A DNA stretch of 64,000 nucleotides from an uncultured Bacteroidota bacterium (GTDB taxonomy: Bacteria > Bacteroidota > Bacteroidia > Chitinophagales > Chitinophagaceae), in contig CAIRYK010000046.1 of NCBI GenBank assembly GCA_903882805.1, forward strand, positions 1 through 64,000, written 5' to 3'. Positions 5,163-63,459 of the stretch are shown piece after piece; within the stretch, counting starts at the first letter, position 1; each line of letters begins with the position of its first letter. The notes below the pieces were generated by a model. The model had not been told where the DNA came from. It made no database searches and saw nothing but the letters and a program-made list of their open reading frames with translations. Position numbers and translations under genes: made by a program.

Positions 5163-6149
5163 ATGTTCGAAAATAATATTGTACTTTTCCATTCTAAACT
5201 ATTAGTTATGGGGTCTATAGGTGTAGTGTTTATATTGTTTATAGTAGCAATATTGGTCATGAGTTTTGTTACTGTTCAGCAAGGTACAGTAGCGGTTATC
5301 ACTGTTTTTGGTAAGTTCAGGCGCATTCTGCACCCCGGATTGAATTTTCGGATACCTGTTATCGAGCAGATATTCAAACGTATTTCCTACCAAAACAGGT
5401 CTATAGAACTCAAATTTCAGGCTATTTCGCAAGATCAGGCCAATGTGTACTTTACCGCCATGTTGCTGTACTCTGTGCTTAACGAGGAGAGCGCTACGAT
5501 AGAAAATGTGGCATTTAAGTTTGTAGACGAACGGAGTTTTATGCAAGCCCTTATACGGTCGGTGGAAGGAGCGGTGAGGGCTTTTGTGGCTACCAAGAAA
5601 CAATCTGAAATTTTGTTGTTGCGTACAGAAATCATACATCACGTAAAGGAGCAACTGGACATACAACTGGAAGGGTGGGGGTATCATCTAATGGACCTTC
5701 AGATCAACGATATCAACTTTGACGAGGACATACTTAAGTCAATGTCGCGAGTTGTAGCGTCAAACAATCTGAAAGCTGCAGCAGAAAATGAAGGTCAGGC
5801 ATTGCTGATTACCAAAACCAAGGCTGCTGAGGCTGAAGGAAACGCCATTAAAATATCGGCCGATGCCGAACGTACTGCTGCGCAGATGCGTGGTCAGGGC
5901 GTGGCGCTGTTTCGGGAGGAGGTGGCCCGCGGTATGGCATCGGCTGCAAAAGAAATGGAAAATGCAAATCTGGATGCGTCTTTCATCCTGTTTTCTATGT
6001 GGACCGACGCCATTAAGCACTTTGCCGAATATGGAAAAGGTAATACTATTTTTCTGGATGGGTCGGCCAATAATTACCAACGTACTATGCAGCAATTAAT
6101 GTCTACGCTGCAGGGCTTTGATCCAGAAAAAGAAAAAGAAAAATTATAA
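5163..6149 (+). CDS. SPFH/Band 7 (prohibitin-like) membrane protein
   Basis: This 328-residue protein has one N-terminal membrane helix (about 13-37) followed by a Band 7 core. The core contains VQQGTVAVITVFGKFRRILHPG (start of the domain) and the RSVEGAVRAFVATKK region. A long Ala/Glu-rich coiled coil follows (about 195-260), typical of oligomer-forming SPFH proteins such as stomatin and prohibitin. The family organises membrane microdomains or scaffolds proteases. No NfeD or protease partner is next to it. The downstream purA has its own promoter, so it is probably monocistronic. Confidence 0.85.
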   Translation: MFENNIVLFHSKLLVMGSIGVVFILFIVAILVMSFVTVQQGTVAVITVFGKFRRILHPGLNFRIPVIEQIFKRISYQNRSIELKFQAISQDQANVYFTAMLLYSVLNEESATIENVAFKFVDERSFMQALIRSVEGAVRAFVATKKQSEILLLRTEIIHHVKEQLDIQLEGWGYHLMDLQINDINFDEDILKSMSRVVASNNLKAAAENEGQALLITKTKAAEAEGNAIKISADAERTAAQMRGQGVALFREEVARGMASAAKEMENANLDASFILFSMWTDAIKHFAEYGKGNTIFLDGSANNYQRTMQQLMSTLQGFDPEKEKEKL

Positions 6150-10472: not shown

Positions 10473-10495
10473 TAGCGGCATTTTTTTCATCAGTT

Positions 10496-43761: not shown

Positions 43762-45081
43762 ATGCTTATTGAATTTAAGTTCGGGAATTACCGTTCATTC
43801 AAAGATGAAGCAACCTTTAGCCTTGTAGCCTCTTCTCTGAAGGATAAAAAGGTCGATAATCTTGCAGTAATGTATAGTCCTATAAAAAACAACAAGCTTC
43901 GCTTGCTGAAGAGTGCTGCAATTTTTGGAGCAAATGCAAGTGGGAAATCAAACTTTGTTGAAGCGATTCGTTTTTTCAGACAGTTTATCGTTAATTCTTC
44001 AAGAGGCACTCAAGTTGATGAAAATGTTGATGTTGATAATTTCAAATTGAGTACAGAAACAGAAAATGAGCCAAGTATTTTTGAAGTAGTGTTTCTGTGG
44101 AAAGAAAATTATTACCGCTATGGTTTTGCTGTTTCCCCTAAAAAAGTTGAGGGTGAATGGTTATATATTAAGGATATAAAGCCAAAGGCAAAAGAGATTG
44201 AACTATTTTTCAGAGATATTGACTCTTTTCCAGTCGTGCATGAAAAATTCACTATTGGAAAAGATGTTGTGCAAAAAAACATGGTTCGCCCCAATGCCTT
44301 ATTACTTTCAGTTGCGGCTCAATTTAACGAACCTATTGCGAATGAGATTTTCCAGTGGCTTTTGTCTTTAAATGTTATTTCTGGACTACATGACGAGCGG
44401 TATGCGGGGTACACAATAACTAAATTACAAGACCCAATTTATAAGCAGCGGATTGTTGACTTTACAAAGTATGCAGATTTGGGCATTGATGATATTCAAG
44501 TTACAGAGGGTGATTTGGTGAACGAGCAGGAGAATACATCTGTTGATTCGGATGATATTCGAAAACCACGTTTGGCTAAGTCCATTAATTCAATTTTAAG
44601 TTTTCATAAAAAATATGATGACAAATTTCAAGTTGAGTCGAAGCCAGTAGAATTCTCATTTACCAAAAGCGAATCGCATGGAACAAAAAAATATTTCAGT
44701 TTAGCCGGACCGATTCTTGACACTTTGGATAATGGAAAAACATTAGTTATCGATGAATTGGATTCTAAACTACATCCATTGCTTACACAAAAGATAATTT
44801 CTCTATTCAACTCGACAGAAACCAATCCTAAAAACGCACAGTTAATTTTTACGACTCACGATACTAATTTATTGAGCGCACTAGTATTTAGAAGAGACCA
44901 AATATGGTTTACAGAGAAAAACCGATACGGTGCTACAAGTATGTACTCCTTATCAGAATATGCAGTCAGAAATGATGCTTCATTTGAAAAAGATTATTTG
45001 GCGGGTAAATACGGCGCTGTGCCTACATTCAAAAATTTCAAAAAATTGTTTACTTCAAATACCTCAACTAATAATGGCTAG
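43762..45081 (+). CDS. rloA: RloA-like AAA/ABC-type ATPase
   Basis: The 439-residue OLD/SMC-like ATPase has an FKFGNYRSFKDEATFSLVA start and Walker A GANASGKSN at 56-64. Walker B is in TLVIDELDSKLHP (about 327-339), and a C-terminal switch histidine lies in IFTTHDTNLLS. This is the AAA15/RloA type. It is followed, with an 8-nt overlap, by an RloB-like gene, the usual partner. RloA/RloB genes were first noted inside type I restriction loci and occur in defence islands; the mechanism is not firmly established. It is the first gene inside the left end of the island. Confidence 0.85.
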   Translation: MLIEFKFGNYRSFKDEATFSLVASSLKDKKVDNLAVMYSPIKNNKLRLLKSAAIFGANASGKSNFVEAIRFFRQFIVNSSRGTQVDENVDVDNFKLSTETENEPSIFEVVFLWKENYYRYGFAVSPKKVEGEWLYIKDIKPKAKEIELFFRDIDSFPVVHEKFTIGKDVVQKNMVRPNALLLSVAAQFNEPIANEIFQWLLSLNVISGLHDERYAGYTITKLQDPIYKQRIVDFTKYADLGIDDIQVTEGDLVNEQENTSVDSDDIRKPRLAKSINSILSFHKKYDDKFQVESKPVEFSFTKSESHGTKKYFSLAGPILDTLDNGKTLVIDELDSKLHPLLTQKIISLFNSTETNPKNAQLIFTTHDTNLLSALVFRRDQIWFTEKNRYGATSMYSLSEYAVRNDASFEKDYLAGKYGAVPTFKNFKKLFTSNTSTNNG

Positions 45082-45625
45082 TATAGATATACCACAAAAG
45101 GTTAAGCGTATATGGGACAAACGCAAAGAACGGAGTATTGAGAGATTTAATAATAATACCAGAGAAATTAAACAATCTTTCTTGATTATTTGTGAAGGAG
45201 AAAATACAGAACCTGACTATTTTAATGAGTTTAAGTTAGGTTCAGCAAAAGTAGAGTCTGTTGGTCAGGGAATGAATACAATTTCATTGGTAGAAAGAGC
45301 AATTTTTATAAAAAAGGATTATGCAAGAAAGGGACATGTTTACAATCAATATTGGGTAGTTTTTGACAAGGATGATTTTAGTAACAATGATTTTAACAAT
45401 GCCATATGGGTGGCTCAAGCGGCTGGTTTTCAGGTAGCATACTCTAATCAGTCATTTGAATTGTGGTACTTGCTTCACTACAATTTGCACCAAGGTGAAA
45501 TAAATAGGTCCCTGTACGCCGATATTTTAACTAATTATCTAGGATTTGCTTACACAAAAGAAAAGGAAGTTAGCGAGAAAATGTGTGCATCATTATGGAG
45601 TAACCGCCTTACGATCTTGATTTAA
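45074..45625 (+). CDS. rloB: RloB-like protein, apparently truncated at the C-terminus
   Basis: The 183-residue protein has the RloB/Toprim-like pattern: FLIICEGENTEPDYFNEF (about 35-52), YWVVFDKDDFSNNDFN (about 93-108) and AYSNQSFELWYLLHYN (about 123-138). I start it at 45,074 (MASIDIPQKVKR), overlapping the rloA stop. The frame is open upstream but that part is rloA read in another frame. After KEVSEKM the protein ends in an unrelated tail (CASLWSNRLTILI), and its last 33 nt overlap the 3' end of the convergent gene. The usual C-terminal helix region is missing, consistent with a deletion. Confidence 0.75.
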   Translation: MASIDIPQKVKRIWDKRKERSIERFNNNTREIKQSFLIICEGENTEPDYFNEFKLGSAKVESVGQGMNTISLVERAIFIKKDYARKGHVYNQYWVVFDKDDFSNNDFNNAIWVAQAAGFQVAYSNQSFELWYLLHYNLHQGEINRSLYADILTNYLGFAYTKEKEVSEKMCASLWSNRLTILI

Positions 45626-47530
45626 TATTATCGGTATTTTCTTTGCTATATCCCATTGATGTTCATTTGCGTTTAAATATGCGTAAAATTTAAGTATCCA
45701 TTCATCAGATTGTTGTTCTATAAATTTAGACGTTATTTTTTTTAAAATTTTGGGGAGCTCAAGACATTCTTTCACAACTGAACGGATATACTTCTCTAAT
45801 GTTTTATCTACCGCATTGACCGCCTTTAGCCATTTTGAAATAAACACCCAACCTGCATCAGCATTATCCATTAGCGTACTAACTTGCTCGTCAGAAAAAA
45901 TTTCTGTAATTCTGGTATCTGGTAACCAATACGCTTTATTGGATTCATAGTATTTGCCAGTATCCAATCTTCCTGGTACTATTTGCTCATTTTTAAATTT
46001 ATTGAGTATAGAATCATAAAAAGGCTTAAAAGAAATTTTTTCATTGTTATTTATGTCTGTAAAATCAGTTTCTCTGTAGGGGACAATATCCAATATGGTG
46101 TCATCTATAAGATAAGTTTTATCTTTTATTCCAATTTCTTTTAGGTAGTAAAGTGTATCGGCAGCTAAATAGGCTAATTGCTGAATGAGATCAATATTCA
46201 ATTTTTCTCCTGCCATAATGCCTTCCCTATTATCGGTTAGCATAAAAGGAGCCTGAATAATGAATCCCAAATTCGTCTTTTCTTTCGTTGGAAAAAAGCA
46301 AAAAGCATCATATTGCTTTCCGGTTTTTAGTTTCTTGTCGTTTTGGATAAAAAAACCAACTACAATTTTATGTTTGGATTGTAATGGTTTATAAATAATG
46401 TTCCTTGAAAAAAGCCAAATATTCTCTGTATGAATTTCATCATTTCTAATACTCGTAACTTCTAACAGTGAGGATTCCGTATCAGGAAACCGCTCGCTTC
46501 TGATTATCTTTTTTGAGTATTCACCACTATTATTTGCCGAAGCCCAATTTATTTTCTCAAGACAATTCAAAAATAATATTGGCTGAAAAATAGACATCAA
46601 TTTTTCTTCTATCTCAAAATAGGCATCCTCTTTACTTTTGGCATCATGGTTGAATGGAAAGTAAAATAACGTCTCTCCCTTTCTGCGATTTTCCAATATT
46701 GGCTCTATCTCTATTGGAATAATGTAGTTTTCTAATTTGAAATTAAAATTGTCATCATAAATTTCAGGCGTACTACTATATGCAAAAACAGATTTAAACC
46801 CTATGCCAAATTTTCCTATTTTCTGATCGTCAATTTTTGAAGAATTACCAATTGAAGTAATGGCATTCAAATCACCAAGTTTACCAGAATTTGTATCTGT
46901 TTTGGTAGTATCAGTATCAGAAATAGAAAAATTTTTGCCGTTATGTTTAAACCAGAATCCATTAGGCTCTAATCCAAATTCAACCCATGTAGCTCTTACA
47001 TCATCAGCATTTTGCAATAATTCATAAATGAAATGAGCTTTTGCAGAGTATTTTTTAATTGCAGTTTCCCAAATTCCACGATATTCCCAATCTAAAAGAA
47101 CTTCGGCATCTTTTTTCCTTTTATTGCTTAATTTATGAAATAGAGAAAAATAATCGCCACCCTCGATATTGTCAGAATCATTTATGTTATTGATTGCGAC
47201 CATGTCAAAGGGTACAATAGATACGCTACTATTGCTATCATTTATTATTTCAGTTTTTTTTATTTTTATCTCTGGTAAATCACTCATCTCTTCATTTCCT
47301 TTGAGATAATATGTACCCGCTTTTGCCCTGATAATTTCTCCTTCATTAAATAATATTCCCAAATCCCTATGAAGGGTATTTAATGGCGTTTTTGAATTTG
47401 TAAAATCGCAATATCCTCGTTCAATTATATGCTCATATATTTCTCTTACAGTTGCTGTCTTATTTAGATCTCGCAAACTTTGTAAGCAAGCCGTTTTTAT
47501 GGTCATTTCGCTGATTTTTACGTTAATCAT
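45593..47530 (-). CDS. HARE-HTH plus sacsin-type GHKL ATPase, C-terminally truncated
   Basis: The 645-residue protein has an N-terminal HARE-HTH winged helix (about 9-77; TIKTACLQSLRDLNKTATVREIYEHI). A sacsin/Hsp90-like GHKL ATPase follows (about 140-330) with FIYELLQNADD (N174, D177) and IGKFGIGFKSVF (238-249). The rest is an uncharacterised helical part. Relatives with this ATPase usually run on for many hundreds of residues and often end in a nuclease or DUF3883 domain. Here the frame stops after QDRKAVTP, exactly where rloB is also cut. The start could be Met9 (47,506). Two copies of a shared motif lie upstream. Confidence 0.72.
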   Translation of the reverse strand: MINVKISEMTIKTACLQSLRDLNKTATVREIYEHIIERGYCDFTNSKTPLNTLHRDLGILFNEGEIIRAKAGTYYLKGNEEMSDLPEIKIKKTEIINDSNSSVSIVPFDMVAINNINDSDNIEGGDYFSLFHKLSNKRKKDAEVLLDWEYRGIWETAIKKYSAKAHFIYELLQNADDVRATWVEFGLEPNGFWFKHNGKNFSISDTDTTKTDTNSGKLGDLNAITSIGNSSKIDDQKIGKFGIGFKSVFAYSSTPEIYDDNFNFKLENYIIPIEIEPILENRRKGETLFYFPFNHDAKSKEDAYFEIEEKLMSIFQPILFLNCLEKINWASANNSGEYSKKIIRSERFPDTESSLLEVTSIRNDEIHTENIWLFSRNIIYKPLQSKHKIVVGFFIQNDKKLKTGKQYDAFCFFPTKEKTNLGFIIQAPFMLTDNREGIMAGEKLNIDLIQQLAYLAADTLYYLKEIGIKDKTYLIDDTILDIVPYRETDFTDINNNEKISFKPFYDSILNKFKNEQIVPGRLDTGKYYESNKAYWLPDTRITEIFSDEQVSTLMDNADAGWVFISKWLKAVNAVDKTLEKYIRSVVKECLELPKILKKITSKFIEQQSDEWILKFYAYLNANEHQWDIAKKIPIILNQDRKAVTP

Positions 47531-47600
47531 TATTTAGTCGTGCAACTTCTACTATTTTCTAATAGAACACCTAATGCTCATTTGTGAGTTTTTATTGTTC

Positions 47601-47688
47601 TATCAAATGGCCATCAAATAAAAAAGCATTGATTTTCAATGGGTTTAATGTTCCTACGAGGTTCTTTATCAAATAACCATCAAATAAG
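47601..47688 (-). promoter_or_regulatory. Two copies of an ATCAAATAA-based motif upstream of the sacsin-type gene
   Basis: Motif copies are at 47,601-47,621 and 47,667-47,687. Each contains TATCAAAT and CCATCAAATAA. The second is identical over 24 nt (47,665-47,688) to 49,151-49,174, upstream of the next minus-strand gene. Confidence 0.6.
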
Positions 47689-47689
47689 A

Positions 47690-49141
47690 TTAAGCCCAAA
47701 AAGGGATGTACTTTGAATATTTAAATGACTTATTATTCGGATCATCATCTTTAATCAAATTCGCCTCTTTCGTCTCATTAATTATTCTTGATACAAGGGC
47801 AGAGTTTTTTTCATCAATTTTAAACCGTTCTCTTAAAGTTTGATTGGTCATTTTTTCATTTGAGACATACTTTAAGCAACAATGCTGATAACAGGCTCTT
47901 ATCTTATCCTGTTTGTCCATTTGATTTAAAGTTTGGTGAGCATACATTATTATTTTAGTATGCTTTTCCTGTGTCTGAAAATCCGGTGCTGGTAATTGAT
48001 ATGCTTCGCACCCGTAAATCACCTTGTCAATGCCGCTGCCTTTTTCTTCACAAATCCGTAACCTGCGCATCAGGTCGGCTAATATTTCATTGCGGCTTTG
48101 GTAATCGTCAATAAAACGGATCGGAGTTATGATTGGCAGTCCAGGATTACTAAATTCAATCCTATCAGTATAAATTTCCACAACCGGATTACCCTTCTCC
48201 CTAAAATCCTGATGAATAATAGCATTTGCTATTAACTCACGAACTCCTATTTCCGGGTACATTTTAACCATTTCACGCAAGGCTTTACTGATTTCTTCAT
48301 TTTGAGGAAGCTGATCGTTGATGTAATGCACCAAACTTTCAAATCCTAAAGCATAACCTTTTGAATCTGTAATGTCTTTAATGGTTTCCAGCTTGTTCTT
48401 GCCTTTATAAACAATTACCCTAACCGCCTTTCGACTAAGTCCGTCAAATTCATTTAGGTTTTTGGCAAACAATAAACCTCCTAAATTGGTGATCGAATAC
48501 TTAGTGCCATTTGTAAGTACCAGCTTTTCAGAAGTCATTTTTTCCAAGACCCCTTGCTGATTAGTTGGATAAGGCAACTTCATCAAGTCGAAATAGTATT
48601 GTGTATCCAGCAACCTTATAACATCGGCAGCCGAAACGCTTTTGACCGCAATTTCCTTTTCGAAAGGCACCTCCGGTTCTTTCTTCCAGATTTTTCTTTC
48701 TTTCTCAGGAAATTCACTCAACCTCCGGGTAATGCTGGCCACCCGGATGTAAGCATTATGCATGAAACTAACGGGTTGATTATGCGTTGCCGGAACTTCA
48801 AAAACTGCAATATGCTTACCACTATAATCAAATTCATAAATATGAAAATCAATTCGGGGGTTAAGTCTTTGAGCCAACCAATGCTCAATATCTTCTTTTT
48901 TATGTTTGAATGTTTTGGGATTAAATGTCGTACCCTCTATGGTTTGGTTATCATTACGAACACCAAATATGAGATAGCCGTAAGGTTGGCCTTCCAGACA
49001 AGCACCGTTAGATAAAGCTGATAGCCGTTCACCTATTTCTTCCGCACTATGGAAGTTTAGTTTAAACTCTACCCACTCACTCTCTTTGCTCTGCTTAATC
49101 AGCTTTTCTAATAGACTATGGAGTTCCTTATCAGACATCAT
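47690..49141 (-). CDS. AlbA_2 (Schlafen-type) and GHKL-ATPase-like regulator
   Basis: The 483-residue protein has an N-terminal AlbA_2/Schlafen domain (about 18-140). The evidence is SEWVEFKLNF, GYLIFGVRNDNQTIEG and AYIRVASITRRLSEFPEK. A middle winged-helix region follows. A HATPase_c_4-like domain (about 295-380) has VRELIANAIIHQDF and IYTDRIEFSNPGLP, with the dimer-type motif RRLRICEEKGSGIDKV. A C-terminal winged helix (about 430-480) ends it. Such proteins are annotated as ATP-binding or RNA-binding transcriptional regulators and are frequent in defence islands. It shares an upstream motif with the following sacsin-type gene. Confidence 0.82.
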   Translation of the reverse strand: MMSDKELHSLLEKLIKQSKESEWVEFKLNFHSAEEIGERLSALSNGACLEGQPYGYLIFGVRNDNQTIEGTTFNPKTFKHKKEDIEHWLAQRLNPRIDFHIYEFDYSGKHIAVFEVPATHNQPVSFMHNAYIRVASITRRLSEFPEKERKIWKKEPEVPFEKEIAVKSVSAADVIRLLDTQYYFDLMKLPYPTNQQGVLEKMTSEKLVLTNGTKYSITNLGGLLFAKNLNEFDGLSRKAVRVIVYKGKNKLETIKDITDSKGYALGFESLVHYINDQLPQNEEISKALREMVKMYPEIGVRELIANAIIHQDFREKGNPVVEIYTDRIEFSNPGLPIITPIRFIDDYQSRNEILADLMRRLRICEEKGSGIDKVIYGCEAYQLPAPDFQTQEKHTKIIMYAHQTLNQMDKQDKIRACYQHCCLKYVSNEKMTNQTLRERFKIDEKNSALVSRIINETKEANLIKDDDPNNKSFKYSKYIPFWA

Positions 49142-49517: not shown

Positions 49518-49919
49518 TTAATATGCCAATATCAACCTTGTAAAAATGGCTATAAGAATTGCCTCATCTATAACACCGTCAATAGTTAGAATAGGTTGAC
49601 CACCTGTAACTGCTCCTGTTCGCAAGCAATTATTGGTGACATTGTACAGTGGCTGACCACCTGTTATACCTCCTTTACGTATTTGCCCGTTCTTGAAGTT
49701 GTATAAAGGTTGGCCTCCAGTAATAGCACCTTCGCGAAGTTCCCCGTTTACATAATTGTACAATGGGGAACCAGCCGTTGTCCCACCTTTGCGTATGCAG
49801 CCGTTCTTATAGTTATATAAGGGTTGGCCGCCAGTAACTCCCCCATCACGAAGCTCACCATTTATGTAATTGTACAATGGTTGACCGCCAGTTGTACTAC
49901 CTTTTCTTATACAGTTCAT
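49518..49919 (-). CDS. Small protein of six 19-residue tandem repeats
   Basis: The 133-residue protein starts directly with the repeat and has no signal peptide. Six units of 19 residues follow the pattern NG.(I/L)R.G..TGGQPLYNY. (residues 1-114), then a hydrophobic tail (about 115-133, ILIAIFTRLILAY) that could sit in a membrane. The units differ at the DNA level, so this is an old, protein-level repeat. It might form a small beta-solenoid. I know no function. The island contains a second small repeat protein at 56,288. Confidence 0.7.
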   Translation of the reverse strand: MNCIRKGSTTGGQPLYNYINGELRDGGVTGGQPLYNYKNGCIRKGGTTAGSPLYNYVNGELREGAITGGQPLYNFKNGQIRKGGITGGQPLYNVTNNCLRTGAVTGGQPILTIDGVIDEAILIAIFTRLILAY

Positions 49920-50912: not shown

Positions 50913-51830
50913 TTAGTATTGTTCAAATGCTCGCTGATGAGCAGCCCTAATTTCATTGGCTAATATTTTCGGTTTTAGGACTTTCACATTATTGCCAAAA
51001 GACAGCAACTCCATGAGCAGATCGTGAGTAACATGCAGATGCAGTTTTACTTGTAGTTCGTCTGCATTGTCTATTAAAACCTGCTGGGTTTCGTGAAGGG
51101 GTAATGTCTTTATATATTTCCCCTGAAAAGGATCAAATGACAATATTATTTCTTGTGGTTTTTCATCAGTAGGGCTGATAATCCCAAAACAGTAACGATA
51201 GCTTTCTTCTGCACTATAATTAGCAGGCAATATAAAAGTTACGTTAGTAATTTCAAGGCTTGACATACGGTCTAAGGCAAAACTTTTAACCCTGCCATCA
51301 TTATTATCCTTAGCTAAAATATACCAGCGGTTTTTAAACTCTTTTAAAACATAGGGATCGGTAACTCTTTCGCTTTTTTCTTCTTCCCAGAATTTTTGGT
51401 AGGAAAATTTTATTTTCAACCTGTTTTTAACAGCATGAAGCAGTCCATACAAATTTTCTGTTCCCTGAGGCCGTCGTTTTTCTAAGTGAACATGAGGAGA
51501 TAAATCCTGCGCAAGCCGCAAAGAATTGAATACATCAAAAGTCTCCATCATCCTTTGAAAATTTAGATTTTCCATTTCGCCCTGGTTGATAAAATAACCA
51601 CCTGCTGATTTTGAGTATTCTATGTCTATGCCGAATATATTACTTATCTCCCGGATGTCGCGTTGAAAGGTGCGCTTAGAAAAGCCAATATCCAATGTAT
51701 CATCCCGCATTTGCATGTTGTCAACCTTGTTTTCAATATACTGGTTCAACTCCTCATAAGAACTATAAGGTTTTGCTTTCAGCTTTTTAAGGATGAGCAG
51801 GTAGCGAGATATGTAGCCACGTTTAGACAT
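50913..51830 (-). CDS. WYL-domain transcriptional regulator
   Basis: The 305-residue protein has an N-terminal winged helix (about 1-75; FSKRTFQRDIREISNIFGIDIEYSKSAGGYFI) and a WYL domain (about 125-225). The WYL domain has IKFSYQKFWEEEKSERVTDPYVLKEFKNRWYILAKD and the FALDRMSSLEI strand. A WCX-type C-terminus ends near FGNNVKVLKPKILANEIRAAHQRAFEQY. WYL proteins sense nucleic-acid-like ligands and often repress phage-defence operons (CapW and BrxR are examples). Its place next to the DUF262 cluster suggests such a role, by inference. Confidence 0.85.
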   Translation of the reverse strand: MSKRGYISRYLLILKKLKAKPYSSYEELNQYIENKVDNMQMRDDTLDIGFSKRTFQRDIREISNIFGIDIEYSKSAGGYFINQGEMENLNFQRMMETFDVFNSLRLAQDLSPHVHLEKRRPQGTENLYGLLHAVKNRLKIKFSYQKFWEEEKSERVTDPYVLKEFKNRWYILAKDNNDGRVKSFALDRMSSLEITNVTFILPANYSAEESYRYCFGIISPTDEKPQEIILSFDPFQGKYIKTLPLHETQQVLIDNADELQVKLHLHVTHDLLMELLSFGNNVKVLKPKILANEIRAAHQRAFEQY

Positions 51831-52144: not shown

Positions 52145-54076
52145 TTAGACCTCTGCCAAACTCGATTCGATAGAGTCCAAATCATATTCATCAGTATCTG
52201 CGGTAACTTTTATATTGTAAGGGAAAAATATAGTATTTTCAACTAAAATAAAACGTTTCCCGTTCATCCAACACCATGAATTTTGTACTTTTGTTGTGTG
52301 CAGAAATGCTATTACTTTCTTTCTGTATTCATCCGTGTCTCTTGCAATACAATTATCGATAATCAATGCAATTGTAATACCAGCAGCTAATTGCGTAAAA
52401 ATACCCTTAAACACATCACCTTGAATGTGCTTTCTCCAAAAAAGGGAATCACCTGATTTACCTAGATAGTACCTATGCCCCTCCATTGTTGTTGACCAAC
52501 CATCGTGAAATTCCCAAAAATTTCGACTTGAAGCTAACATAGCAATTCGCAATTGTTCAATAGCTAAATCGCCAGTCAAATCCAAAAATACCTCATAAAG
52601 TCTAATAAATTCTGACAGTAAAAACGTAAAATCAACCTGCAATAGAGCTCCATCCATTGCAGCCAATATTGGAGTAACTTTCCCATTTAAAAATTGATGG
52701 TCCTCTGCTTCCCAAAATCTATCTTCCAGCGCTTTTCTTTCATTTTCATCTTTGCAGCTTTTGTATAACCTAAGCTTGAACTTTTCTTCTTCTGTTAATA
52801 TAGAATCAAATTGTGTTTCCCCTAAGTATAGAAAATCAACCACATCAGACTTTTGACCAACGCTTTTTGCTAATAGAACTGCTTCAGTTTTGGCTTCTGT
52901 ACTCTTAGCCAAATTCGAAAAGAAACGCATGTAGCGATAGAAACTATCATAGTCAACTTCGTCAAATTTGATAAAGTAACGAGTGCCATCAAAAGATACC
53001 CATTCCGTGTTGACCAGTTTAACCAAACAGGGATATAGCACTATAGTCTGCGGTTTATTATTCCTTTTAAATTCGGTCTTAACATTTACGATTTCAAATT
53101 TTCTGGTTTTTGCCAGTCTTTCCTGAATACCGATTAGAAGGAAGAAAGCTTTAAAATAACTTTCGATGATCACGAAGGAAAGATCTTTTGCTTTTTCAAT
53201 ATCTTCTATCCAATCTAAAAAAGCGTTAAAACTTTCATCTGCACTCAACTGACCCTCAGGTCTGTTTTGCCAAAAAAAATCCTGCCATATTTCCCATTTC
53301 TCTGTTCCTTCTATTCGTTCGCTGGCACATAATTTTGATAGCAGAATTGATTTTTGATGTTCGTTTTTTTCCATTGGATCGCCACATGTATTTACTATCT
53401 CATACATCTTCTCGCCGTACTCTCTTATTATCGAATACGTTTTCTCGGTCACAACATCATTAGCCTCCAATTTTATATAAACGAAACCTATTTTGTCCAA
53501 AATATAGTTCTTGATTTCCTCCGCATTACCTGTGTTAACCAAGCTTTTAATGTCCTTCAATGCTTTCACCATATTGGATACTGACGGATCATTTTCATAT
53601 TCACCTCGAAACCAGGTTGCCTTTTTAATGTCATCTAAATGAGCGAATTTTTGTTTTAGAAATACTTCATGTAGCAAATCTTTAATAAAATAGTCAGTCG
53701 AGTTTCTGACCTCATATTTCAACCGGGGTTGTGAATTGCTTAACTGCAATAAACTTATCAAGCCTGAACTTGGCACATAGCAGTTTAACACACCTAGTAT
53801 CAGGTATAGTGTTGTCAATCTTTGTTGTCCATCACACAAATACAGGAATGAATCTGGATATTCATAGGTGTATATTATACCATAAGAATATTCCTTTATA
53901 GATGATTGCTTTTGGGCATCATTTACCAAGTCGTTGGTGAAATTGTATACCAGACTTGTTTTTTTGCCATTAGGCACAGTTTCTCCCCAGCAATAGTCCC
54001 GTTGTAAGTCCGGTATTATTAATTTATTATTATCGCTAAATAAGGCAGTAAGTAAGTTGAATGCTCCTTGGATCAT
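52145..54076 (-). CDS. DUF262-domain protein, second of the pair
   Basis: The 643-residue protein has an N-terminal DUF262 (ParB-like nuclease-fold) domain with FNLLTALF, LIIPDLQRDYCWGE and FLYLCDGQQRLTTLYL (DGQQR at about 82-86). A long helical remainder follows. No DUF1524 His-Me finger motif is visible. DUF262 hydrolyses or binds nucleotides in GmrS-type enzymes that cut glucosylated phage DNA. The frame is open to 54,136, but I take Met at 54,076 because DUF262 proteins begin close to this point; 54,100 is an alternative overlapping the upstream stop. It is translationally coupled to the upstream DUF262-DUF1524 gene. Confidence 0.8.
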   Translation of the reverse strand: MIQGAFNLLTALFSDNNKLIIPDLQRDYCWGETVPNGKKTSLVYNFTNDLVNDAQKQSSIKEYSYGIIYTYEYPDSFLYLCDGQQRLTTLYLILGVLNCYVPSSGLISLLQLSNSQPRLKYEVRNSTDYFIKDLLHEVFLKQKFAHLDDIKKATWFRGEYENDPSVSNMVKALKDIKSLVNTGNAEEIKNYILDKIGFVYIKLEANDVVTEKTYSIIREYGEKMYEIVNTCGDPMEKNEHQKSILLSKLCASERIEGTEKWEIWQDFFWQNRPEGQLSADESFNAFLDWIEDIEKAKDLSFVIIESYFKAFFLLIGIQERLAKTRKFEIVNVKTEFKRNNKPQTIVLYPCLVKLVNTEWVSFDGTRYFIKFDEVDYDSFYRYMRFFSNLAKSTEAKTEAVLLAKSVGQKSDVVDFLYLGETQFDSILTEEEKFKLRLYKSCKDENERKALEDRFWEAEDHQFLNGKVTPILAAMDGALLQVDFTFLLSEFIRLYEVFLDLTGDLAIEQLRIAMLASSRNFWEFHDGWSTTMEGHRYYLGKSGDSLFWRKHIQGDVFKGIFTQLAAGITIALIIDNCIARDTDEYRKKVIAFLHTTKVQNSWCWMNGKRFILVENTIFFPYNIKVTADTDEYDLDSIESSLAEV

Positions 54077-54083
54077 GGTGGTG

Positions 54084-55787
54084 TTATTTGAAAAAATCAT
54101 TAAAGTCTGTTGTGAACGCTCTTTTATTACTCTCAATTTCTTCGGCTAACCAATCTGATTTGCTTCCAAAAACCGACAATGTATGCAACCATAGACCTTG
54201 ATTTTTCGTGCTTATATTTAAAATCTCCTTAAAGAGAATTTCTTTTTTCTCGTGAAAAGACCAGTTACTCAATTTGCTATTCAAACCACGGGGAACTAAA
54301 ACCAGATTGCCAATAGTATTAGTTAAGGAATTTAAATGCATTAGCTCACCTTCACTTAAATTGAGATTTACGTAAGTCTGGGGCTTTATGTGCTCAAGGC
54401 TTCTTGTTTTGTCAACATCGATGTCTTTCTTTTTTAGATTGTCCTCCTCGTACAAATCAAATTCGAATTTATGTTTTTGTTTATTTGCCATCATTGCATT
54501 CATTCTTAACAATTGTCGGCAAACAGGGGTATAAAGTTGGTGGTATGCGTCAAGTTCATTCAGCAGTGATTTGAGAAAATCTTCCTTTGTTGTTTCTTCG
54601 AAGATTATTTTAATATATTGATTCCGAACTTCCTTTATAAATCCATTTTTGTTCTCTAAATACCGATTTATTAGTTCAAGTAATTTTTCTTCTCTCCCTC
54701 TTCCTATTAAACCACTCCCTTTGAACAGCAGCCCCAAATAATTATAAATCTCATGGCTTTCAAACCATTCCTGAATGATATTTTGTAATAAACGTAACCG
54801 TTCCCACACCTGTAGTGCTTGTATGTTGGAATCTTCAGTTGCCGCTATCTTGTCCTTAAAATACTCAAATAGCCCATTGTCATTGTCCTTAGTTTTGTCG
54901 TCTTGAACGTATCGTTGATATAGCTTAAATAAAATAGCCAAATTTGGCTCGGGATCTTTCGGTTTGGATGGCAACGCTATCATTTTTGCAAAGGAGAAAT
55001 GTCGTTCATCTTCCCACCATTTTCTCCAATCGTCCCACTCCGTTGCATATTTTGTCCTCAGTTGATTTATCTGCCATTCCAAACCATCCAGTTGATTTTC
55101 TCCCTGTTGCTGGCTAATTTCATGATAAACTTGCCTAGATGCCTCTCTGAGTATATTGGACTTAATAAGGTCTGTTTGACTCATTTCGGCCTTATCTTGA
55201 TTCATCATGGAGAAAACTTTTGTCTCATCCTGATTATGATCCAATGTTATGTAAATTATTTTTATGTTATTCTGAATAAACTCGCCAAATAATTCCAAGT
55301 CGTTTACCCCTAATAACTCTTCTTCACAAATGCGCCAAGCTTTTTTAAGTGCCGCAATATCCTGCACCTGCTCATCCCCTTCACATTTTCCTTTCAAAAA
55401 ACCTTGTAATACTTTATTTGCGGCATCCCTTACATTGTATTTCATTTTATTTTCTAAACTGAAGCTCAGCGAGAGACCCTTACTTTTGAATAAACAAAAC
55501 AGAATAAAGAGTGAAGTAGTGCGTTGCTGACCATCCACCAATTCTATTTCATTCGCTGTTTGCTTAGTTGTAATACCCTGAAGATGGTATTCATAATTGG
55601 GAATAATTTTACCATCACGTATTGCGCTATTGAATTCACGTTTGAAATCGGTAAGCAACAATCTTAAATGCAGGTCACCTCGCTTTTCATTTTTTTGTAA
55701 GCTCCATTTATACCCTCTTTGATAATAGGGGACAACAAATAACCGACGGTCGCTAAAGTATTGGGCGAGTGTTTTAAAATTGGACAT
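54084..55787 (-). CDS. DUF262-DUF1524 protein (GmrSD-like nuclease)
   Basis: The 567-residue protein has DUF262 motifs FVVPYYQRGYKWS (about 17-29) and ELVDGQQRTTS (about 82-92). Its C-terminal DUF1524 domain has a His-Me finger pattern, LEHIKPQ at 464-470 and NTIGNLVLVPRGLNSKLSN (about 490-508). This order is that of GmrSD type IV restriction enzymes and the related BrxU, which cleave modified phage DNA with NTP. It is followed directly by a second DUF262 gene and preceded by a DEDDh exonuclease gene 17 nt away. It is a core gene of the proposed defence cluster. Confidence 0.85.
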   Translation of the reverse strand: MSNFKTLAQYFSDRRLFVVPYYQRGYKWSLQKNEKRGDLHLRLLLTDFKREFNSAIRDGKIIPNYEYHLQGITTKQTANEIELVDGQQRTTSLFILFCLFKSKGLSLSFSLENKMKYNVRDAANKVLQGFLKGKCEGDEQVQDIAALKKAWRICEEELLGVNDLELFGEFIQNNIKIIYITLDHNQDETKVFSMMNQDKAEMSQTDLIKSNILREASRQVYHEISQQQGENQLDGLEWQINQLRTKYATEWDDWRKWWEDERHFSFAKMIALPSKPKDPEPNLAILFKLYQRYVQDDKTKDNDNGLFEYFKDKIAATEDSNIQALQVWERLRLLQNIIQEWFESHEIYNYLGLLFKGSGLIGRGREEKLLELINRYLENKNGFIKEVRNQYIKIIFEETTKEDFLKSLLNELDAYHQLYTPVCRQLLRMNAMMANKQKHKFEFDLYEEDNLKKKDIDVDKTRSLEHIKPQTYVNLNLSEGELMHLNSLTNTIGNLVLVPRGLNSKLSNWSFHEKKEILFKEILNISTKNQGLWLHTLSVFGSKSDWLAEEIESNKRAFTTDFNDFFK

Positions 55788-55804
55788 AATTTTCGATTAG
55801 GTGT

Positions 55805-56284
55805 TTAGCTAAATTTCAAATGCTTCAAATACAATTCCCCACAAGCCATAGCATCACTCAGCGCATCGTGGTGATTAAGAGTAATATTATGCTTTATACA
55901 CAGAGATTTCAAGCTTTCTCGGTAAATTTTATAGGTGCAATGCCCGGTGTAGTCGGGCACTTCAAGTTTGTAATAATCCAATGTTTGCCTGAGGCATTGA
56001 AAATCAAATGCGAAACCATTGTGTGCTACCAAATTTTGGTTTAAAATGAATGGTTTTATTTTATCCCAAACATGGTTGAACGTTGGCGCATCTGCTGTTA
56101 GTACAGGAGTAATTCCATGAATATCAATGAAATTGTTCCAATAGAAATTATTCGGTGGCTGCACCAAAATTGATAGTTTTTCTATTGTCATCCCATTTTC
56201 AATACGGACAAGCCCCACCTGGCAAATGCTCCAACGCTTCCCATGTGCTGTTTCAAAATCAATAGCTGTAAAAGAACTGTTCAT
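55805..56284 (-). CDS. DnaQ-like 3'-5' exonuclease (DEDDh)
   Basis: The 159-residue protein is a bare exonuclease domain. It has TAIDFETA (D9, E11) as motif ExoI, AHNGFAFDFQCLRQTL as ExoII and NHHDALSDAMACGELY (HxxxxD) as ExoIII. All four acidic residues and the histidine are present, so it should be active on single-stranded DNA or RNA 3' ends. It resembles the free-standing exonuclease family rather than a polymerase proofreading subunit. It sits 3 nt behind the SWIRTYD-repeat gene and 17 nt before the DUF262-DUF1524 gene. Confidence 0.85.
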   Translation of the reverse strand: MNSSFTAIDFETAHGKRWSICQVGLVRIENGMTIEKLSILVQPPNNFYWNNFIDIHGITPVLTADAPTFNHVWDKIKPFILNQNLVAHNGFAFDFQCLRQTLDYYKLEVPDYTGHCTYKIYRESLKSLCIKHNITLNHHDALSDAMACGELYLKHLKFS

Positions 56285-56287
56285 GGA

Positions 56288-56590
56288 TCAGGCGCTTTTT
56301 TCACTTAACCTTTTACATTTCTTATCATACGTCCTTAACCAACTTCCCTCTTTTGTGGTAAATGTTTGTCCGGCAGCGGCTCTAACAGTCTTATTGCTGG
56401 CCGACATTTCTGCAATTCTCTTGCAGTGCTCATCATAAGTCCTTATCCATGAGCCTTCTTCGGTCACAAAAAAGTCAGAACCGATGCCCACTACTTCCTT
56501 ATTAGAAGCAGACATTTCCGAAATTCTTTTACTTTTTTCGTCATAAACTCTTATCCAAGAGCCTTCATTTTGAACGTTTGAAATTGGCAT
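56288..56590 (-). CDS. Small SWIRTYD-repeat protein
   Basis: The 100-residue protein consists of three ~37-residue units. Each has the pattern EGSW(I/L)R.YD.K.KR(I/L)(S/A)E.SAS, joined by VVGIGSDFFVTE-type linkers. It starts with MPISNVQNEGSW and ends just after the third unit. There is no signal peptide, and it is highly charged with Trp, Arg and Tyr at fixed positions. It resembles small Bacteroidota repeat proteins of unknown role. Its tight packing (3 nt before the exonuclease, 58 nt after the AAA gene) makes it part of the cluster. Confidence 0.7.
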   Translation of the reverse strand: MPISNVQNEGSWIRVYDEKSKRISEMSASNKEVVGIGSDFFVTEEGSWIRTYDEHCKRIAEMSASNKTVRAAAGQTFTTKEGSWLRTYDKKCKRLSEKSA

Positions 56591-56648
56591 AACTGTGGTT
56601 TTTATATTACGTGCCTACTCTATCCAGTTTTCGGCATCCCTGTGTATT

Positions 56649-57782
56649 TTATCTTAAAGAGGAACTTTTAAAACCAATAGCATTATTTTTCCCGGTTTGT
56701 TGAAAGTCCTTCTCCTCTTGATTGTAAATTGCTGTCAATGTCATAGGCTTATTTATGCTTGTCGCAAACCCTAATTTCTGCGATAACATTTGGGCTTTGT
56801 CAACTTCTAACTCATTAAACTCATATTTTGCAATTAACCTCCCCTTGCGCATCAATGCAGCATCCACTTTTGAAATATCAGTATTAAATGAACAAATTAT
56901 TTGTATGTTCAAACAATCGGATAGCAGGCCGTCAGAAATATTTAATAATGCAGAAACAGGAGAATTCCCGTCTTTTTCCCGGTCAACAACAATATTCTCC
57001 GCATCTTCAATAACGAACACAGAATTGGGGTTTTCAATAAGTACCGAAATTAAATCAGGATTTGTAATTGCCCCAGCCATGTTTGGCGGTAAAAAGATAA
57101 TGTCTTTTTTCAGCAATGATATAAGATACCGGATATAGGAGGTCTTGCCTGTACCCGGCTTACCATGCAAAAGCACCAGCCCTTTATCATTTTTCTTCGC
57201 AAGTCTTTTCAGGATAGTTTGGTGTATATCCTTAAAATCATCGTTGTAGTTGTCTGTTATGTTTAATTTAGGTTTTGTTATCTCCAATGATTTAGTAGTA
57301 ATACCAAGCTTTGAACTCACTAACAGTGAAATCTTAGGTTTTTTTCTGCTCTTCTTTTCCCTGAATTTTTGAATTCCATTTATTATTTCCTCAACTTTTT
57401 CAATCCCGGTTTTGCGAAAAAGTAATCTTACCGTAGATTGATTCGTATCAAAGTCGACAATCAAATCTTCATCCAAAATATAGAAAATATCATCAAGTTC
57501 AGCTTTCCTTCTGCTGTTGAAATACCTCTTATCAAAATGGAAATCCTTGATTTCTGTTTTATAGGTTTCCATGAACCATCCATTTGCTTTTTTACAATCA
57601 ATATTTATTTCGTTAATGAAATTTGGGATCGTATTGAAATAAGCAAGGAACAAGGTAAATTCATTCAAATAAGAACCATTACGTTCTGCGAAAATTTCAG
57701 ATAAATCCATATTGGTTGCTGACTTGTTCAATCCAAATTCTTTTGTTTGTAAATCCTTAAAGCTGATTGTTTTTGATGTCAT
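56649..57782 (-). CDS. BCS1-like AAA ATPase
   Basis: The 377-residue protein has an unknown N-terminal region (about 1-170). The AAA domain that follows has Walker A GKPGTGKTS (207-215), Walker B VFVIEDAE (255-262) and sensor-1 asparagine at N300 (ICSFNTDI). Arginines of the MRKGRL box are at 312 and 315. The layout is that of BCS1-type AAA proteins, which also appear in bacterial defence and toxin contexts. It is the first gene of the five-gene minus-strand cluster. The upstream region is shared divergently with the gene at 58,066 and contains direct repeats. Confidence 0.82.
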   Translation of the reverse strand: MTSKTISFKDLQTKEFGLNKSATNMDLSEIFAERNGSYLNEFTLFLAYFNTIPNFINEINIDCKKANGWFMETYKTEIKDFHFDKRYFNSRRKAELDDIFYILDEDLIVDFDTNQSTVRLLFRKTGIEKVEEIINGIQKFREKKSRKKPKISLLVSSKLGITTKSLEITKPKLNITDNYNDDFKDIHQTILKRLAKKNDKGLVLLHGKPGTGKTSYIRYLISLLKKDIIFLPPNMAGAITNPDLISVLIENPNSVFVIEDAENIVVDREKDGNSPVSALLNISDGLLSDCLNIQIICSFNTDISKVDAALMRKGRLIAKYEFNELEVDKAQMLSQKLGFATSINKPMTLTAIYNQEEKDFQQTGKNNAIGFKSSSLR

Positions 57783-61673: not shown

Positions 61674-61961
61674 ATGAGAAAAGAGAAGAATAATAAAATC
61701 ATCCCATTTAGAGGAACAACCGATAATGTCGGGGTAGCAGCAGAAGATCAGATGCCTTTAGCAAAGTGCAGGGAACTGCTAAAAGGTAGGGGCAAGAAAT
61801 ATACTGATGAAGATATACTACTGATAAGGGATTGGTTTTATAAGCTTGTTGAACTTACCTACGATGAATACTTTATTAATCAGCAACCGTGTATTATAAT
61901 ACCACTAACAGAAAATCAAAATGATGACAATGAGGAACGCCATTATTTACGTGCGGGTTAG
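61674..61961 (+). CDS. Small protein preceding the recombinase
   Basis: The 95-residue protein has PFRGTTDN at the start and LAKCRELLKGRGKKYTDEDI in the middle. Its last 41 nt overlap the recombinase start. A small gene in this place is usual in front of Bacteroidota serine-recombinase genes. The overlap suggests translational coupling; a regulatory or directionality role is guesswork. Confidence 0.6.
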   Translation: MRKEKNNKIIPFRGTTDNVGVAAEDQMPLAKCRELLKGRGKKYTDEDILLIRDWFYKLVELTYDEYFINQQPCIIIPLTENQNDDNEERHYLRAG

Positions 61962-63459
61962 CACAGAAGAACAATCAGAAAAGGGTTACAGCCTTGCGCA
62001 TCAGGAAGAAAGACTGCGGAATTATTGTAAGCAGCACAACATCACTGTAGTTGGCTTTTACAAAGAAGACCATTCGGCTAAAACATTCGAGCGGCCTGCT
62101 TTTAATGAGCTATTATCTTATCTTAAAAAGAACAAAAAAGCCGTTGACCTGCTATTGTTCCTTAAATGGGATAGGTTTAGCCGTAACGCAGGAGATGCCT
62201 ATGGCATGATAAATACGCTGCACAAGCTCGGAGTAGAGCCACAGGCTATGGAGCAACCGCTGGACTTATCCGTACCCGAAAACAAAATAATGCTGGCATT
62301 CTATCTTGCTGCGCCCGAAGTGGAGAATGACCGCCGTTCACTAAATGTAATTGCAGGAATGCGCAGGGCTATGAAGGACGGTAGATATTGTACGACTGCA
62401 CCTAAAGGCTACAAGAATGTACGCAACGACATGAACAGGCCGATCATTGTGCCGGGAAATGATGCTCATTTGGTACGATGGCTTTTTGAAGAAGTAGCTA
62501 ATGGTATCAATAACGTAAAAGACCTTTGGCGGGTAGCGGTCAAAAAAGGGCTAAAGGTTGGTAGAAGCAATATTTTCTACCTGCTTCGCAATCCTGTTTA
62601 CATGGGGAAGCTTTATGTTCCTGCCTACAAGGATGAGGAAGCAATGATGGTAAAAGGGATACATGAGTCGTTAATTTCCGAAGGGCTGTTTTATGAGGCA
62701 CAGGATGTATTAGATGGCAAGAAAAGAAAACAGGCATCCGTACAAACGGGTAAAGCTGAATTGCCATTGAGAGGCTTTTTAATCTGCCGTAAATGCGGTA
62801 GCAGGTTAACAGGCAGTGCATCTACCGGAAGAAACGGTAAATACTTCTATTATCATTGTACGAGTAAATGCGGGGAAAGATACAAGGCAGAAGAAGCCAA
62901 TGACCACTTTTTTTCGGAACTGCAAAAATTCAGCACCTATGAAGAGGAGATTTCACTTTTCGAGGGTATTGCTGCCGATTATTATAAAAAGGCAGGGAAG
63001 CATAAGAGTATTAGCTTAAAAGACATAGACGAGGCTATAGAGAAGAACCAAGCAAGGATAACTAACGCATTACGCAAAATGTCGGACGATGAAATAACCT
63101 CTTTGGATTACAGGGAGATTAAAAACCTCTACGAACCCGAAATAGAGAAGCTTACCAAAAAGAAATATGACTTGAGTAAGGTAGATGATAACCTGATGGC
63201 GTACATCAGCACGGCGACAAAGGTTTTGCGTGACCTGCCGAACTACTATGAGAAAGCAACGCTATCTACTAAGCAAAAGTTGATTGGTTCGATGTACCCT
63301 GAGAAATTGGTTTACGAAAATAAATCTTATCGAACCGCAAGAATTAACGAGGCTGCCCGTGTAATATGCAACCCTGACGGGCTTTTAGAAGGATTAAAAA
63401 AAGGACAGGCTTCCGAAATTGGAAGCCTGTCCGAACAGGTGATCCGGATTGGATACTAA
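61921..63459 (+). CDS. Large serine recombinase (integrase of the island)
   Basis: The 512-residue protein catalyses site-specific strand exchange through a 5'-phosphoserine. The resolvase domain is at about 7-150, with catalytic Ser14 in YVRVSTEEQ and the R cluster WDRFSRNAGDAYG. A recombinase domain follows (about 170-270), then a zinc ribbon CRKCG...CTSKCGERY (about 289-325). The C-terminus has a coiled coil. The last 20 residues (KGQASEIGSLSEQVIRIGY and neighbours) are encoded by a hairpin and by the right 16-bp repeat. The start may be Met4 (61,930). It lacks the length of phage integrases but fits transposon-type members. Confidence 0.9.
   Translation: MMTMRNAIIYVRVSTEEQSEKGYSLAHQEERLRNYCKQHNITVVGFYKEDHSAKTFERPAFNELLSYLKKNKKAVDLLLFLKWDRFSRNAGDAYGMINTLHKLGVEPQAMEQPLDLSVPENKIMLAFYLAAPEVENDRRSLNVIAGMRRAMKDGRYCTTAPKGYKNVRNDMNRPIIVPGNDAHLVRWLFEEVANGINNVKDLWRVAVKKGLKVGRSNIFYLLRNPVYMGKLYVPAYKDEEAMMVKGIHESLISEGLFYEAQDVLDGKKRKQASVQTGKAELPLRGFLICRKCGSRLTGSASTGRNGKYFYYHCTSKCGERYKAEEANDHFFSELQKFSTYEEEISLFEGIAADYYKKAGKHKSISLKDIDEAIEKNQARITNALRKMSDDEITSLDYREIKNLYEPEIEKLTKKKYDLSKVDDNLMAYISTATKVLRDLPNYYEKATLSTKQKLIGSMYPEKLVYENKSYRTARINEAARVICNPDGLLEGLKKGQASEIGSLSEQVIRIGY
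63403..63432 (+). terminator. Hairpin immediately left of the right repeat, inside the recombinase frame
   Basis: A perfect 12-bp stem (GGACAGGCTTCC with GGAAGCCTGTCC) has a 6-nt loop and an A-run before it. It ends 6 nt before the right 16-bp repeat, as the left hairpin does on its side. Confidence 0.7.
63439..63454 (+). repeat. Right attachment-type repeat
   Basis: GTGATCCGGATTGGAT is identical to 43,419-43,434. It encodes VIRIG near the end of the recombinase. The following sequence (ACTAAAATT) resembles the sequence after the left copy (GTAAAATT) rather than a tRNA body. Confidence 0.75.

Follow-up and report, generated by a model that had tools for sequence, protein, structure and literature searches.

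Six genes on the minus strand of a 64,000-nucleotide stretch of DNA from an uncultured Bacteroidota bacterium (Chitinophagaceae; assembly GCA_903882805.1, contig CAIRYK010000046.1, positions 1 to 64,000; hereafter the window) form a real, recurring and modular cassette, in which closely similar flanking genes enclose different nucleases in different relatives. We consider it probable that this is a modification-dependent (type IV) restriction cassette controlled by a WYL regulator, with a shared chassis and an exchangeable effector, and we infer an anti-phage function for it. A reading made from the letters of the window (the sequence-only reading) had proposed five of these genes, in 52145-57782, as a candidate new defence cluster. 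The cluster itself was confirmed by open reading frame (ORF) analysis of the window, the five minus-strand genes being packed with the gaps of 58, 3, 17 and 7 nt that had been claimed, and a WYL gene follows after 314 nt more; the interpretation given to the cluster is supported only in part. From first to last, the genes are the following (aa, amino acids; Pfam matches with their E-values).

56649..57782, minus strand: AAA ATPase, 377 aa, first gene, mostly belonging to the constant part (PF00004, 1.4e-10)
56288..56590, minus strand: small SWIRTYD-repeat protein (SWIR), 100 aa, all-beta, constant part
55805..56284, minus strand: DEDDh 3'-5' exonuclease (EXO), 159 aa (PF00929, RNase_T, 2.9e-14), varying with the nuclease in some comparisons
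54084..55787, minus strand: DUF262-DUF1524 (GmrSD) nuclease, 567 aa (PF03235, 1.5e-21; PF07510, 9.1e-13), GrwA-like architecture, cargo
52145..54076, minus strand: second DUF262 protein with a long C-terminus, 643 aa (PF03235 only, 8.3e-18), GrwB-like architecture, cargo
50913..51830, minus strand: WYL-WCX transcriptional regulator, 305 aa (PF13280, 3.3e-15; PF25583, 2.0e-9), last gene, constant part

The protein encoded at 54084-55787 carries the QR, DGQQR (at 85) and FxxxN motifs of DUF262 together with a DUF1524 His-Me nuclease domain and H466, which points to the architecture of a GmrSD type IV enzyme. Its neighbour has DGQQR at 82, and DUF1524 is not among its Pfam matches. A DUF262-DUF1524 gene followed by a DUF262 gene with an extended C-terminus is the order of GrwAB; the likeness is one of architecture as described in PMC12137116. 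The order of TgvAB, with the DUF262-only gene first and DUF262-DUF1524 second, is the reverse of that in the window. EXO has the full D, E, D, H, D catalytic set of the DEDDh exonucleases (D9, E11, D94, H139 and D144), in agreement with the earlier statement that its catalytic residues are intact.

The recurrence of the cassette was followed through EXO. When 84,980 species genomes were scanned with an alignment of four exonucleases, at least 566 relatives were obtained, confirmed among the stretches matching two exonuclease patterns; the best 80 were kept, so that the counts given here are not a full census, and 79 of them were usable (L139, with no complete EXO ORF, was left out). For each locus, the same-strand run around EXO was listed and its genes, taken from mechanically called ORFs, were named by BLASTP (E 1e-3) with a hand-made query set; three loci go by two handles each (L182 and L036, L126 and L211, L125 and L216). 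Six of the 79 loci (L119-L124) have AAA-SWIR-EXO-DUF262-DUF262-WYL in the same order, and two more (L126 and L131) have a single DUF262 gene (GmrSD) in place of the pair, giving 8/79. Thus, the neighbourhood check suggested in the sequence-only reading finds its five genes together elsewhere, and the contrary outcome, that only the two DUF262 genes co-occur, fails. WYL had there been treated as a mere downstream neighbour; it is a member, closing all eight AAA-SWIR-EXO-DUF262 runs, in L119 with an ORF of only 109 aa. Contigs with this order were assigned to at least three Bacteroidota families, and in L132 a 127-aa ORF replaces SWIR in the cassette.

Across the 79 runs, WYL is present in 46, DUF262 in 32, PDDEXK_4 in 11 and McrC in 2, and 43 runs contain one or more of the last three, the nuclease families. 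Immediately after EXO comes DUF262 at 30 loci, PDDEXK_4 at 4 and a McrB-like gene at 2, and immediately before it WYL at 18, a zinc-ribbon repeat protein at 10 and the SWIRTYD protein at 9. WYL lies downstream of EXO in 29 loci; what stands between them is one of the three nuclease families in 20, nothing in 5 (L135, L141, L160, L165 and L182) and other genes in 4. With the same queries, neither WYL nor DUF262 was found at any of seven more distant DEDDh loci used as a control (L098-L104, 42-48% identity, 15.7-20 kb each), and L104 gave a weak McrB match (4e-4). The genome of the window holds five WYL and five DUF262 genes in 4.94 Mb, so that the chance of meeting a WYL or a DUF262 gene within 20 kb is about 2% each. 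Chance adjacency of the genes was ruled out by the recurring order and the slot counts.

Two further small proteins occur at these loci, both named by our judgement of their sequences. A zinc-ribbon-like repeat protein (C-x-x-CG...SSLTS repeats), the one counted above directly upstream of EXO, replaces the SWIRTYD protein, for instance at L113:6764-6994, L036:11488-11739 and L112:3803-4081, and a metallophosphoesterase-like protein is found at L138:9358-9996, L178:5596-6231 and L140:10492-11160, with matches in 7/79 EXO loci.

The contents of the slot between EXO and WYL are exchanged. Loci in which AAA, the small protein and WYL are 89-98% identical hold DUF262 enzymes that are 23-29% identical to each other, in the form of a GrwAB-like-order pair, a TgvAB-like pair or a single GmrSD. 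As an example, the proteins of L123 and L124 are 98% (AAA), 98% (SWIR), 88% (EXO) and 97% (WYL) identical, and their nucleases 23-26%. The cargo of L123 is DUF262-DUF7834 followed by DUF262-DUF1524, the TgvAB-like order; that of L124 is two DUF262 proteins of 565 and 731 aa, for which "GrwAB-like" rests on size and order, since DUF1524 was undetected at E 1e-3 in the first of them (a relative in L119, 62% identical, scored 21.0 against a 23-bit cut-off); in the window, DUF262 and DUF1524 are both above their cut-offs. L126 has one GmrSD with both domains, and L131 one 705-aa GmrSD beside SWIR and WYL proteins 96-98% identical, and an AAA protein 78% identical, to those of L121, L122 and L124. 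Between the window and L120, identities are 85% for AAA, 95% for SWIR, 80% for WYL, 70% for EXO and about 25% for the nucleases.

At the DNA level, L124 and L123 align with 94.8% identity up to position 10483 of L124 (EXO ends at 10489) and with 92.7% from 14353 onward (start of WYL, 14355), no part of the intervening stretch aligning, and the alignments of L124 with L131 and L126 end at 10469 and 10458, respectively, and resume at 14354 in both cases, again with nothing between. Homology therefore breaks within the last 31 bases of EXO and restarts at the start of WYL, and all three alignments begin before or within the AAA start. L121 and L124 share their cargo, and their alignment runs on continuously for 7478 columns. 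The breaks in DNA homology and the switch between cargo types are stronger signs of exchange than low identity is. A fixed five-gene system is ruled out, as AAA, SWIR and WYL genes that are closely similar accompany different nucleases. Other contents are found at related loci, namely McrB-like and McrC genes between EXO and WYL (L190) or after EXO (L128), and PDDEXK_4 proteins (PADLOC candidate PDC-S26) at other EXO loci. A larger AAA protein (ORFs of 525-612 aa) occurs in 9/79 runs, none of them with the window-type AAA; that of L145, the one tested, is IetA-like by PADLOC.

EXO changes along with the nuclease in part of the comparisons. Between L124 and L131, SWIR is 88-98% and WYL 88-95% identical in DNA, and EXO 70-77% past its first 60 nt; between L124 and L123, EXO is 90-98% identical over 300 nt and then 78-88%. 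DNA identity was compared over all 36 pairs of nine cassettes, 32 with different and four with the same cargo. EXO lies 15-18 points below SWIR in seven of the different-cargo pairs (L131 against five loci, and the window against L119 and L120), and within 2 points of it in all four same-cargo pairs. The EXO tree, which left out L129, L185 and L193 and whose bootstrap had not settled, pairs L131 with L125 (support 96/84), apart from L121-L124. Co-variation of EXO with the nuclease is thus clear in two lineages and slight or absent in other comparisons, and the idea that EXO always moves with the nuclease was dropped after the count over all pairs. In addition, the first 720 nt of the AAA gene of L131 (371-1516) are 64-77% identical to those of L124 and the remainder 87-95%, and part of AAA, its N-terminal domain, may have been exchanged in L131 along with EXO and the nuclease.

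In the working that we propose, the chassis would consist of a Bcs1-type AAA ATPase and an IceA2-fold small protein at the 5' end and the WYL regulator at the 3' end, and the effector of a nuclease, in the window the GrwAB-like pair, with the DEDDh exonuclease as its partner. WYL would keep the operon low until an infection signal releases it; the DUF262 pair would then sense modified phage DNA with nucleoside triphosphate, the His-Me domain would cut it, and the exonuclease would degrade DNA starting at the newly cut ends, while the ATPase and the small protein might assemble or restrain the complex. A wider reading, in which our confidence falls a little short of even, is that Bacteroidota have a general-purpose restriction chassis of AAA, an interchangeable small repeat protein (IceA2-fold or zinc-ribbon) and WYL, whose nuclease slot, often with an adapted DEDDh exonuclease, accepts GrwAB-like, TgvAB-like and single GmrSD enzymes and, in related loci, McrBC; with the whole cassette lying between integron-like sites in several hosts, shuffling would occur at two levels, that of the whole cassette and that of the effector. 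If so, modification-dependent nucleases of different families (single GmrSD, GrwAB-like, TgvAB-like and perhaps McrBC) would share one regulatory and processing chassis, and the exonuclease would be the partner of a cutting enzyme instead of a bystander. The loci would also represent a natural swap experiment, with the same chassis, different nucleases and different phages, and would hint at a role for functionally uncharacterized small repeat proteins, IceA2 of Helicobacter pylori among them. EXO beside WYL could then serve as a search handle for unknown nucleases in Bacteroidota.

Several observations weigh against the reading as a restriction cassette with an exchangeable effector. L121 and L122 are near-duplicates (99.9% DNA identity) and L119 and L120 are close (95%), so that independent cases are fewer than the counts show. 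Low cargo identity alone is a weak sign, because DUF262 enzymes may evolve fast, and the homology breaks and the switch in cargo type come from the relatives, not from the window. The co-movement of EXO rests on about two lineages: EXO is only 2-6 points below SWIR in 7/32 different-cargo pairs and 3-8 points above it in 18/32, all of these between distant groups. The diverged first part of AAA in L131 makes the chassis itself a mosaic, and in L135 and L141 the run is AAA-zinc-ribbon protein-EXO-WYL, with an empty slot and no nuclease. At 25 of the 79 EXO loci, partly at contig ends, the run holds neither WYL nor any of the three nuclease families. The families of the five-gene set thus also occur apart from it. 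SWIRTYD-type proteins, found class-wide in 12 of 395 genomes and in the cassette in two (the window and G319), are mostly elsewhere, with no EXO or DUF262 match nearby in 8/12 genomes. Among four of the nine plasmids with the second DUF262 protein, whose neighbourhoods were viewed, one had WYL and EXO, one WYL and two neither. Finally, in one WYL-regulated CBASS (cyclic-oligonucleotide-based anti-phage signalling system), a catalytically dead exonuclease, Cap18, left protection unchanged (PMC9122588).

The alternative that survives best, in our view unlikely, is that two independent modules are stacked here: AAA, SWIR and WYL, perhaps with EXO, would be a defence or toxin-antitoxin system of their own, in which GmrSD genes hitchhike as tgvAB does in a type I restriction-modification operon. 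Part of an earlier idea lives on in it, that of an AAA-EXO-WYL core with incidental DUF262 genes, which was set aside because the slot proved to hold mostly nucleases. The empty slot in 5 of the 29 EXO-WYL loci is in its favour. Of the 35 runs that combine WYL with a nuclease of the three families, 24 lack the window-type AAA, which also favours it, as do the published cases of GmrSD genes embedded in other operons (PMC11411939). The same holds for a second locus in the genome of the window, where an AAA gene (41%) directly precedes a WYL gene (43%) and neither an exonuclease nor a nuclease separates the two (G000:C43:45221-47269, equal to L045:9221-11269). It is opposed by the slot holding mostly one functional class, DNA nucleases (20/29). 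A second point against it is that EXO changes along with the nuclease in two lineages, so that EXO, at least, is tied to the cutting enzyme.

We regard as improbable that the exonuclease belongs to the control circuit, trimming a single-stranded DNA (or other) ligand of WYL and so setting the threshold of expression instead of attacking phage DNA. WYL stands directly upstream of EXO in 18/79 loci, the WYL proteins DriD and PafBC are reported to bind single-stranded DNA, and CapW, Cap6 and the dispensable Cap18 activity share one CBASS operon (PMC9122588), all of which would fit. An EXO-WYL pair should, nevertheless, vary together, and the opposite is seen: EXO differs with the nuclease and WYL is more alike in L131, as also when the window is compared with L119 and L120. 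Ordinary crowding of a defence island, with a known GrwAB-like pair beside unrelated genes, is very improbable: other defence-type genes do lie near the cluster in the window, and the idea is already contradicted by the same order recurring in at least three families.

Returning to the restriction cassette, the remaining proteins were characterized by motifs and predicted folds. The residues of the AAA protein that we take to be its Walker A, Walker B and arginine-finger residues are invariant in 16 aligned sequences, the window included. Its predicted model (predicted local distance difference test, pLDDT, 79) matches folds of the Bcs1/YjoB type, which is consistent with the BCS1-like label that it had been given. 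The regulator matches WYL and WCX; for the N-terminal helix-turn-helix of BrxR/CapW-type regulators, Pfam listed no model in it at E up to 0.1. For the SWIRTYD protein, no Pfam family was found above its cut-off, none of the beta-flower models PF21784-PF21786 was listed at E up to 0.1, PLSDB plasmids and INPHARED phages gave no match, and PDB sequences gave nothing in a profile search at E up to 1 and one chance-level single-sequence match (E 0.98). Its predicted fold, all-beta with 11 strands, makes beta-flower membership possible; the closest near-whole-chain fold match is H. pylori IceA2 (7xfp), and an IceA2-like fold is possible as well. PADLOC matches in the cluster are to single-gene models, among them DEDDh, Orf5, HEC-06, SspE and WYL. 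A CBASS-type signalling system was considered and rejected, with no CD-NTase (cGAS-like) among the Pfam and PADLOC matches of the six genes.

Known systems resemble parts of the cassette. GrwAB (Vibrio cholerae WASA) and TgvAB are two-protein, GmrSD-like systems with tested modification-dependent activity, which is lost without either protein or the nuclease motif (PMC12137116, PMC11411939). GrwAB shares with the window a DUF262-DUF1524 protein followed by a DUF262 protein with a long C-terminus, and QR, DGQQR and FxxxN-type motifs; unlike the window pair, it is not known to have a chassis, and the words "WYL" and "exonuclease" do not occur in the main text of PMC12137116. TgvAB likewise has two DUF262 proteins, one with DUF1524, and sits inside another operon; it differs in having DUF262 before DUF262-DUF1524, as L123 does, and in that its host operon is a type I restriction-modification system (PMC11411939). 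Members of the BrxR/CapW family of WYL regulators act as repressors of defence operons, and genes related to brxR are often found together with type IV restriction (PMC9122588, PMC9122601). In the BrxR-regulated BREX (bacteriophage exclusion) island, the GmrSD enzyme BrxU is under a WYL regulator as in the window (PMC8565348, PMC9122601); the six genes of the window, in contrast, include no BREX genes, and their regulator stands at the end of a compact cassette in which the slot content is exchanged. The CapW-CBASS of Escherichia coli upec-117 has WYL, a TRIP13-type AAA (Cap6) and a 3'-5' exonuclease (Cap18) in one operon (PMC9122588); the window has a GmrSD-type nuclease instead, with no cyclase among its Pfam and PADLOC matches. 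IceA2, from the iceA restriction locus, is likewise a small protein and is the SWIRTYD protein's closest fold match over nearly the whole chain, with no sequence similarity found; iceA adjoins the methyltransferase gene hpyIM, and iceA1 is a restriction enzyme allele (PMC13340068). The sequence-only reading had known of no described system with this gene set. The nuclease pair is known in kind from GrwAB and TgvAB; the combination of an exchangeable slot with a partner exonuclease appears to be undescribed, in that open-access literature searches aimed at the cassette turned up no account of its chassis or slot.

The surroundings of the cassette in some relatives look like an integron-type array. 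In five of them (L121, L122, L124, L123 and L131) the cassette begins at TTATAGCC, and integron-like features lie at L121:8157 and 15620, L122:4445 and 11908, L124:8158 and 15626, L123:3368-8153, and L131:4 and 5582-5720. AACGTT-ending attC-like hairpins (z -3.7 to -6.1) close the cassette in L121, L122 and L124; L131 has a hairpin of -43 kcal/mol after WYL. Upstream in L123 there are four such hairpins at spacings of 0.8-1.2 kb (z -3.7 to -5.4), together with two weak hairpins. The hairpin scan is not specific, since the opposite strand of L119, L123 and L151 gave comparable z values. A 360-aa tyrosine recombinase gene in L121 is divergent, 164 bp before the cassette, and no integron integrase above the TIGR02249 cut-off was found in the genomes of 12 relatives. 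In the window, TTATAGCC stands directly before the AAA start codon, after T and not G, and there is no AACGTT-ending hairpin with z below -2.5. The IntegronFinder 2.0 paper names one complete Bacteroidetes integron (PMC9024848).

Not every family is restricted to the cluster, as match counts across 296 Bacteroidota genomes (that of the window included) indicate: the AAA protein occurs in 23, EXO (E 1e-10) in 43, the second DUF262 protein (E 1e-6) in 6 and the SWIRTYD protein in 3. Of 27 other AAA places, 17 had wide flanks (19-20 kb) and 13 of these were good matches, one lying beside a window-type EXO and five having a WYL match; AAA-EXO-WYL is present in G146. The SWIRTYD protein is a longer ORF beside an EXO-PDDEXK_4-WYL run in G622 and precedes a DUF262 gene in G084. 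Plasmids carry WYL-EXO-DUF262-DUF262 (Prevotella sp. E2-28), a zinc-ribbon protein-EXO-DUF262-DUF262-...-AAA-...-WYL series (Chryseobacterium balustinum), WYL-zinc-ribbon-DUF262-DUF262 (Hymenobacter cellulosilyticus) and DUF262 pairs without WYL or EXO (Segatella hominis and Aliarcobacter faecis). There were 27 plasmid EXO matches, and among the seven neighbourhoods viewed a DUF262 pair with WYL was present in two (Chryseobacterium and Prevotella) and absent from five. Viral contigs gave 16 EXO relatives (best 54%), none with other cassette genes matched.

The neighbours of the cassette in the window appear to include other defence-type genes. Downstream of WYL, 49518-49919 (minus strand) encodes a 133-aa six-fold beta-flower protein (PF21786, 4.9e-15), another small repeat protein nearby, and 45593-49141 (minus strand) a 645-aa protein that matches TmtA models in their N-terminal portion (1.5e-43) and a Schlafen AlbA_2/RecG-C protein. 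An ATPase gene followed by a small partner gene at 43762-45625 (plus strand) resembles what we take to be RloA/RloB. Upstream of the cassette, a 512-aa protein encoded at 61921-63459 (plus strand) is, as read from its sequence alone, a putative large serine recombinase.

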